From assembly GCA_012840085.1 (NCBI GenBank), contig DUMB01000085.1:1-64000 (forward strand): a stretch of DNA of 64,000 nucleotides, given 5' to 3'. The position numbers were made by a program, and so were the translations under genes. The notes under the pieces are model-generated. The model was not told the DNA's origin and ran no database searches. It saw only the letters and a program-made list of their open reading frames with translations. The stretch comes from Clostridiaceae bacterium. Its GTDB lineage: Bacteria > Bacillota > Clostridia > Acetivibrionales > DUMB01. Below are positions 10,907 to 63,877 of this stretch, one piece after another. Each line of letters begins with the position of its first letter. Position 1 is the stretch's first letter.

Positions 10907-10985
10907 TAGTACCTCCAAAACCTGTCACTGGTAATCTTGCATAAATTAACACGCGAAGCTGCCATTTATACGGTATATCTGATTC

Positions 10986-11108
10986 AACTTGTTCGCCAGC
11001 TAATGAGATAGCATTGTGGAGAGTTTTAGGTATATTTTTATAAGCTCTAAAGCCCTAAACTCCTGCCTTAGATGAACTCTTGCCATAGAAATGCCGGCAC
11101 TGCAAGTT
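10986..11108 (+). repeat. Interspersed inverted-end element, copy B (full length)
   Basis: The ends AACTTGTTCGCCAGC (10986-11000) and GCCGGCACTGCAAGTT (to 11108) are inverted repeats. The core TAATGAGATAGCATTGTG follows the left end. An inner helix GAGTTTTAGG / CCCTAAACTC is present here but built from different bases in copies A and C. Confidence 0.85.
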
Positions 11109-11294
11109 GTTTTTAATAATTTCACAATAAGAAGTATACCAGAAAAATATTCAAAAATGTATACTTTTAGGAAAAGATATGACTTGAAAAAAAAGGAAAT
11201 TAGGTTCTGCTTCAGAACATATCTGTATTGTTTGAAATAGTAATAAATGGTATAATATGTAATACAAGCTAATAATCGTGCAGGTGAATAATTT

Positions 11295-32322: not shown

Positions 32323-33330
32323 TTGCCGAAAGCAAAAAAGGTATTTGTATTCATACTATTCATTATAATGTCTACTGCAGTGCTGACGGGATGCAGCAAA
32401 CCAAAAATGATTGAAAAAATCGAGACAGAGGATGCAGTATCGGAAGAACGGATAATAAGGAATCAACAGGTAAAGCAGGAAAGACAAATTACAATAGGAG
32501 TATCTCTTTTATCCTTTGACAACATATTTATTGCTGATGTGAAAAATGCAATGGAAGCAAAAGCAAAAGAACTGGGTGTATCGCTTATTATAAGCGACGG
32601 TCAGAACAGTACGGAGAAACAGGTCAGCCATGTAGAGAACTTTATCGCACAGATGGTAGATGTTATAATACTCAATCCCAATTCAATGGTCGGATGCAAG
32701 CCAGCCGTAGAGTCGGCAAACAGAGCAGGCATACCTATAATTACTGTAAATACATTGGTTGAAAATCAGGATAAGTGTGTCGCTTTTGTCGGGTCTGATG
32801 CAGTTGAATCAGGAAGGATACAAATGGAATATGCAGCAAGGCTTCTCGGCGGAAAAGGTGATGTTATCATTCTAAAAGGGCCGCTGGGTCATGAAGCGGA
32901 AATTGGCAGGAGTAAGGGCATGAAGGAAATTCTGGATAAAAATCCTGGAATTAATGTTGTATATGAACAATCTGCAAACTGGTCACGGGGTGAAGGCAGA
33001 ATTATAGTGGAAAACTGCCTGAATTCAGGAAAACACATAGATGCAGTTATCTCGCAAAATGATGAGATGGCCCTGGGTGCTCTGGAAGCAATTAATAAGT
33101 TTAATCTCACGGGTAAAATCAAAGTGTTCGGTATAGATGCAATTCCTGAAGCATTAAAACAAATCAATGAGGGAAACATGCACGGCACAGTATTTCAGGA
33201 TGCAAAGGGCCAGGGAGCCATGGCTATACAAACAGCGGTCAAAGTAGCCAAAGGCGAAAGAGTGGAAAGCAACATTTATATACCTTATGTGTTGGTCACA
33301 AAGTATGATGTGTCAAAGTATTTAAATTAA
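32323..33330 (+). CDS. Sugar-binding lipoprotein, paralog 2
   Basis: A 335-residue ribose-class binding lipoprotein, lipobox ending LTGC (Cys24), fold from about residue 55 (ITIGVSLLSFDNIFIADV) and the family motif AVISQNDEMALGALEA. Start TTG 32323 is preferred: GAAGGGAAG precedes it and the signal peptide then has normal length, whereas the frame extends 25 codons upstream without a ribosome site. It is more distant from the other two binding lipoproteins and may bring a different ligand to the same permease. Confidence 0.85.
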   Translation: MPKAKKVFVFILFIIMSTAVLTGCSKPKMIEKIETEDAVSEERIIRNQQVKQERQITIGVSLLSFDNIFIADVKNAMEAKAKELGVSLIISDGQNSTEKQVSHVENFIAQMVDVIILNPNSMVGCKPAVESANRAGIPIITVNTLVENQDKCVAFVGSDAVESGRIQMEYAARLLGGKGDVIILKGPLGHEAEIGRSKGMKEILDKNPGINVVYEQSANWSRGEGRIIVENCLNSGKHIDAVISQNDEMALGALEAINKFNLTGKIKVFGIDAIPEALKQINEGNMHGTVFQDAKGQGAMAIQTAVKVAKGERVESNIYIPYVLVTKYDVSKYLN

Positions 33331-33375
33331 CTTGTTGTGCCGGCATTTCGACAGCAGGAGCCGGCACAATAGGTT
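33329..33375 (-). repeat. Interspersed element, deleted form D
   Basis: Inverted ends AACTTGTTGTGCCGGC (33329-33344) and GCCGGCACAATAGGTT (33360-33375) flank the complement of TCCTGCTGTCGAAATGCC, the 3' part of the full element. The core and middle are missing. It lies between the genes for binding lipoproteins 2 and 3. Confidence 0.8.
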
Positions 33376-33403
33376 AAATCAATTATATATGAAGTAAAGC
33401 CTG

Positions 33404-60061: not shown

Positions 60062-60078
60062 CAATGATTTTTTAAAAT

Positions 60079-60191
60079 AACTTGTTGTGCCAGGTAATGA
60101 GATAGCATTGTGTATAGCTTTAAAGATAGTTTTTGTTAGCTCTTAAGCCCGGAAGTCCTGCTATCGAAATGCCGGCATAACAAATCAAGTT
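60079..60191 (+). repeat. Interspersed inverted-end element, copy C (full length)
   Basis: The ends AACTTGTTGTGCCAGG (60079-60094) and CCGGCATAACAAATCAAGTT (to 60191) are inverted. The core TAATGAGATAGCATTGTG and the 3' motif GAAATGCCGGCA are present. It lies 18 bp after the glyS stop. Confidence 0.85.
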
Positions 60192-63538: not shown

Positions 63539-63615
63539 CACAACTAAAAATAGACTGGCATAATTATATAAACAAATAAACTTGCATAATTATAATTAAA
63601 AATTGTGTTAAACCG

Positions 63616-63877
63616 ATGAGCAAGAGGAGTAAGAATAATTATTTGTATACAGAGAGCTGCCGTTGGTGCGAGTGCAGTTACAAAGGTTATTCCGAATGGA
63701 CTTGCGAGGGAAGCCCGAAATCGAAAGAGAGTAGGCGCTTACGGGGGGCCGGCCCGTTATAAGGAGGATGCATATGATGGTATGCAAAAATGAGTGGGCG
63801 TAGAAATACGCCAATTTGGGTGGCACCGCAGAAGTGTAAGCTTTTGTCCCTGTTATGGGAACAAAAGCTTTTTTTAT
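63616..63877 (+). promoter_or_regulatory. Tryptophan-specific T-box riboswitch
   Basis: Stem I base GCAAG (63620-63624) / CTTGC (63701-63705), AGTAAG element, and a specifier loop GAA-TGG-AC with the Trp codon TGG at 63697-63699. The T-box GGGTGGCACCGC is at 63818-63829. The antiterminator pairs GGG with CCC (63848-63850); the competing terminator is AAGCTTTTGTCCC (63838-63850) with GGGAACAAAAGCTT (63857-63870) and T8. The TGGC bulge fits a G73 discriminator, as in tRNA-Trp. The regulated gene (trpS, trp genes or a tryptophan transporter) lies beyond the window. Confidence 0.92.

Follow-up and report, generated by a model that had tools for sequence, protein, structure and literature searches.

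Apex-deleted copies of a structured MITE family in a 64,000-nt window, and a core fold that covaries between genomes

In the window, by which we mean the whole stretch of 64,000 nt that was analyzed, a 14-mer, AATGAGATAGCATT, occurs exactly 3 times (at positions 1371, 11002, and 60096; 0.07 occurrences expected), each time within an imperfect palindrome. These occurrences lie in 3 copies of one element (A, B, and C), the limits of which were set by genome-wide alignment, and a fourth copy was found that was absent from the list of the original prediction. The features are as follows.

1352–1463, + strand: copy A, an apex-deleted compact member
1371–1446: match of the core model R1 in copy A (46.2 bits, E 2e-9)
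10984–11110, + strand: copy B, apex-deleted and decayed, with a duplication of approximately 17 nt in its right arm; outer arms CAACTTGTT and GCACTGCAAGTTG
11002–11015, + strand: AATGAGATAGCATT in copy B, the left arm of the second helix and not a local hairpin
11002–11076: weak match of the core model R1 in copy B (23.2 bits, E 0.0021)
33327–33378, − strand: fourth copy, consisting of the outer arms and part of the right arm, with the interior lost
60077–60188, + strand: copy C, an apex-deleted compact member
60096–60171: match of the core model R1 in copy C (44.0 bits, E 7.5e-9)
63607–63854, + strand: a T-box leader (RF00230, 117 bits)

The fourth copy matches the long form of the element at 91% over 34 nt (33360–33327, BLAST). 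When the window region was used as a BLAST query, 37 places were hit across the whole host genome (G000; 4.09 Mb in 108 contigs), and searches with the left and the right half recovered 43 paired copies plus solo ends. We take the family in this genome to comprise at least 43 paired copies, dispersed and intergenic. Their length goes from approximately 112 nt for the compact copies up to approximately 309 nt for the long ones, the longer copies having an extra 60 to 200 nt at the apex. The compact consensus of approximately 112 nt folds as a single hairpin (−61.7 kcal/mol for a 122-nt consensus with flanks). Judged from their alignment, A, B, and C derive by apical deletion from a long-hairpin core of approximately 140 nt. 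Because A and C carry an identical 61-nt apical deletion, a compact, apex-less founder probably spread in the host genome.

It had been argued from copies A, B, and C that an inner helix is kept by different bases in each copy, next to an invariant AATG-AGATAG-CATT hairpin, and that structure is therefore under selection. The arms quoted for the 3 copies are indeed present in the sequences, and upon folding the copies individually, A (z −3.3) and C (z −3.6) surpassed their shuffles. Copy B did not: its fold (−31.2 kcal/mol vs −27.6 kcal/mol for shuffles, z −1.17) was equalled by 29 of 200 shuffled sequences, and the pairing of GAGTTTTAGG with CCCTAAACTC, which had been read as the homologous inner helix of this copy, is instead a register created by the duplication in its right arm. 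Nor is the small hairpin invariant, because it varies among family members (AATGAGACAG, AATTAGATAG, and others). The AGATAGCA part of this segment pairs long-range with TGCTATC, and it is at this GATAGCA/TGCTATC helix that covariation between genera is seen. A lack of covarying pairs among a larger set of copies, which the original prediction itself had named as counter-evidence, is what was obtained within the host genome: in 33 copies, no base pair was significant when G-test values with average-product correction were compared with a null of substitutions reshuffled over a tree (an R-scape-like test written for this analysis). Single changes at the pairs of these copies included 71 wobble-keeping vs 78 pair-breaking transitions, divergence was 0.124 in paired vs 0.119 in unpaired columns, and the inner helix was the fastest-diverging part (0.169). 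This suggests that the resident copies are simply decaying, as neutral intergenic DNA would. The site in the window is an ordinary decayed MITE copy. Selection on structure is thus unsupported from A, B, and C (no covariation and equal transitions among the 33 resident copies), but it is supported for the family by covariation of the intact long form across the class.

In its complete form, the element consists of an outer inverted repeat around the core of approximately 140 nt, with no gene. The core folds as one long rod, in which short helices alternate with purine-rich, mostly 3x3 internal loops and which also contains a U.U mismatch and a small apical hairpin. Genome G003 has longer homologues, and G013 and G037 have homologues whose arms differ considerably; the predicted rod is the same in all of them (z −8 to −9.6). 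When 6 members were aligned on sequence alone, double changes were present at 20 of the 40 pairs. Among 34 diverse members with a mean identity of 59%, 27 of the 40 pairs covary significantly, and each of the 26 highest-ranking column pairs is a predicted base pair; the underlying alignment (A3) was fitted to the covariance model and so favours the pairs of the model, and the sequence-only alignment agrees with it. Paired cells amounted to 94%, dropping to 34% to 41% once the partners were slid. The GGA/GGA, GAA/GAG, and U.U mismatches are retained by members that share only 59% identity. Covariation above the phylogenetic null is therefore seen between genomes and not within the host genome, and it does not separate RNA from single-stranded DNA. 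The comparison points clearly to a family fold kept by evolution in the relatives. Comparing resident copies can mislead in such a case, because they are in decay and the structure is retained by the lineages that spread. At 2 loci of genome G137 (L246 and L253), the same extra hairpin of approximately 50 nt replaces part of the right apical arm.

The covariance model R1, built from the core, was used to search genomes. It matched 32 of the 391 genomes of the class (approximately 8%) and 4 genomes outside it, most of them multi-copy (40 copies in G042 and 19 in G137). No family of Rfam 15 matches the core at or near its gathering score, and no description of the element was found in open-licence papers. 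The element was not found either in plasmid, phage, and viral collections, where 5 viral matches to the short GATAGC pattern lack the palindrome and the single match to the apex pattern is not matched by R1. An exact-pattern scan of genome contigs gave 2 matches in records from other phyla. Tandem arrays of units of approximately 200 to 220 nt, each with a structured core, were seen at L203 (G201) and L298 (G500).

The G042 copies have the form GGGTGCAT...ATGCACCC and measure 197 to 202 nt, and in the sequence analyzed, 20 elements of this length are flanked by 9-bp duplications in which at least 7 positions agree; ten shorter copies also have 9-bp duplications, nine of them perfect. The same genome holds a 920-bp relative with the same ends that carries a fragment of an ISKra4-family transposase, as well as an intact ISKra4 element of 1,641 bp that has GGGTGCAT ends and is flanked by a perfect duplication of 9 bp. 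Three 1,636-bp ISKra4 elements with GGGTGCAT ends were found in G137, 2 of them with perfect duplications. The intact transposases of the elements of both genomes are 454 to 456 amino acids long, and in each genome the subterminal sequences of these insertion sequences (IS) are similar to the ends of the MITEs found there. We class the family as MITEs because its members are short and multi-copy, have no transposase gene, have terminal inverted repeats and, in G042, are flanked by 9-bp target duplications; in G042 and G137 they also share their termini with an autonomous ISKra4 element of the same genome. These sequence comparisons, with matching ends in 2 genomes and duplications in one (G042), show the core to be moved in trans in relatives by ISKra4-family DDE transposases. 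Hence, the proposal of an RNA or a folded transposition substrate is supported for the family, the core of which moves as a transposon with IS ends and 9-bp duplications, but not as something derived from A, B, and C.

The terminal inverted repeats differ between genomes, being TTAACTTGTTGTGCCAG/CTGGCACAACAAGTTAA in the host genome and GGGTGCAT in G042. In G137 the same core is found inside two kinds of MITE, some having GGGTGCAT ends and others TTGTGCTAG ends, indicating that it does not depend on a single transposase. TTGTGC-type ends flank the core in the host genome, in G003, and in part of the G137 copies. Because the assembly of the host genome gave no match to an ISKra4- or ISLre2-type transposase and its copies have TTGTGC-type ends, we did not file the window copies under ISKra4, and the family is probably immobile in this genome. 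The flanks TTAANTTAA give a hint only of target duplications there (z about 3 among 384 tests). No transposase for the TTGTGC-type ends was found in the host genome or in G003. The ISLre2 elements of G003 were rejected as mobiliser of these ends because they have other ends themselves. A likeness of TTTAAC...GTTAAA to integron attC sites was also dropped, since the G042 form has GGGTGCAT ends and 9-bp duplications.

None of the 75 copies with usable flanks lies inside an open reading frame. Relative to their neighbours, 22 are co-directional, 29 antisense, 14 divergent, and 10 convergent; as this shows no orientation bias, a terminator, leader, or 3′UTR role was rejected. The median distance from copy to gene is 54 to 130 bp, and similar closeness to genes has been reported for ISLre2 and ISKra4 generally (PMC9208149). 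Over 20 loci, no cis protein partner and no recurring neighbour gene family was shared. A replication-strand role in G042 was rejected as well, as no bias was seen by GC skew (22 vs 18).

The unbiased orientation to neighbour genes, which are themselves not shared, speaks against the core being a small structured RNA that serves the cell and hitch-hikes on MITEs, with the fold selected for what the transcript does in the host. The neutral decay of the resident copies in the host genome and the low share of G.U pairs (only approximately 2%) point the same way, and, going by these sequence data, we consider such a host RNA unlikely. It would nevertheless account for the strong covariation and the conserved internal loops, and it agrees with the excess of G.U over A.C at consensus pairs (30 vs 12) and with the better folding of the + strand in 29 of 32 members (by a mean of −8.9 kcal/mol), although this advantage stems partly from the purine-rich internal loops. 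The few G.U pairs are also what would be expected if the fold acted as a single-stranded DNA hairpin, in replication or transposition, that is recognized by a protein. Of the triloops, 41 of 48 are GNA, and of the tetraloops, 8 of 11 are GNNA and none is GNRA; this GNA and GNNA rule is the one that DNA mini-hairpins of exceptional stability follow (PMC4686876). Furthermore, remnants of 37 and 46 nt in G042 have perfect 9-bp duplications and junctions at short direct repeats, and look like the product of slippage deletion of an extruded DNA palindrome. Against this, the loop counts are phylogenetically non-independent, G042 orientation is unrelated to replication direction, and no protein partner was found. 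A DNA hairpin of this kind is a real possibility, if one to which we give less than even chances; loop types and remnants lean towards single-stranded DNA without settling the matter against RNA. Of the 37-nt remnants (GGGTGCAT...GCACCC), most of which have perfect 9-bp duplications, examples are at L307, L310, L311, L313, L318, L359, and L376, and the end counts of G042 (209 ends vs 40 cores) suggest that their number is of the order of 100.

Covariation could also arise without any structural function, through DNA template switching between the arms or through the presence of the same transposase-binding site in both arms. Both template switching and paired transposase sites are known for inverted repeats, and most of the changes observed here replace one Watson-Crick pair completely by another, G.U intermediates being few. 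However, these processes would make the internal loops complementary too, whereas the loops keep their GGA/GGA, GAA/GAG, and U.U mismatches. Because mismatched loops are preserved, neither process is sufficient, and we regard this explanation as very improbable.

The reading that we favour, and consider likely, is that of a MITE family in which the fold is selected in the spreading lineages and not in the resident copies. The fold would be required for, or would favour, the spread of the element, with selection acting among active lineages, and each inserted copy would then decay as neutral intergenic DNA. The folded species would be one particular strand, as single-stranded DNA or RNA. Because covariation between lineages coincides with neutral decay within one genome, we take the fold to serve propagation of the element, which, granted the MITE reading, seems somewhat more probable than the reverse; a similar covariation pattern would be expected if a few master copies had a function in the host. 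A further-reaching and rather doubtful idea is that the core represents a functional folded nucleic acid not described before, which may act as single-stranded DNA; paired with the ends of unrelated transposons, it would be a structural module spreading across Clostridia-type genomes independently of any one transposase.

Like the IS-derived MITEs of the ISKra4 family, the element is gene-less, intergenic, and present in many copies, with IS-matching terminal inverted repeats and a 9-bp duplication. It differs from them in that its interior is a conserved covarying rod that does not come from the IS interior, and in that the same core is also found with other termini, those of the TTGTGC type mentioned above. 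REP/REPIN sequences with their RAYT transposases are likewise dispersed intergenic palindromes selected as replicating lineages, but the element is much longer (approximately 180 to 200 nt), has DDE-type duplications of 9 bp, and has no RAYT. The intergenic stem-loop repeats of Borrelia plasmids are dispersed inverted repeats with compensatory changes that have been discussed as MITE-like (PMC2674063); they share dispersal and compensatory changes with the element, but are short stem-loops of 34 to 60 nt with no demonstrated transposase (PMC2674063). What we describe is a strongly covarying structured sequence, unlisted in Rfam, that sits, often in dozens of copies, within transposons that have no room for a gene, which raises the question of why a gene-less transposon has so elaborate a fold. 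We regard the family as a new and widespread structured MITE variant that is worth a proper description.

The Clostridiales-2 RNA (RF02937) is likewise a multi-copy structured sequence of the same group of genomes, but its fold and sequence differ and the core is not matched by it. One Clostridiales-2 RNA is nested antisense in the apex of a 309-nt copy of the host genome (L017 1625–1704, − strand, equal to G000:C63:36202–36281), and the family has 22 matches in G013. The Clostridiales-2 RNA family may itself be mobile.
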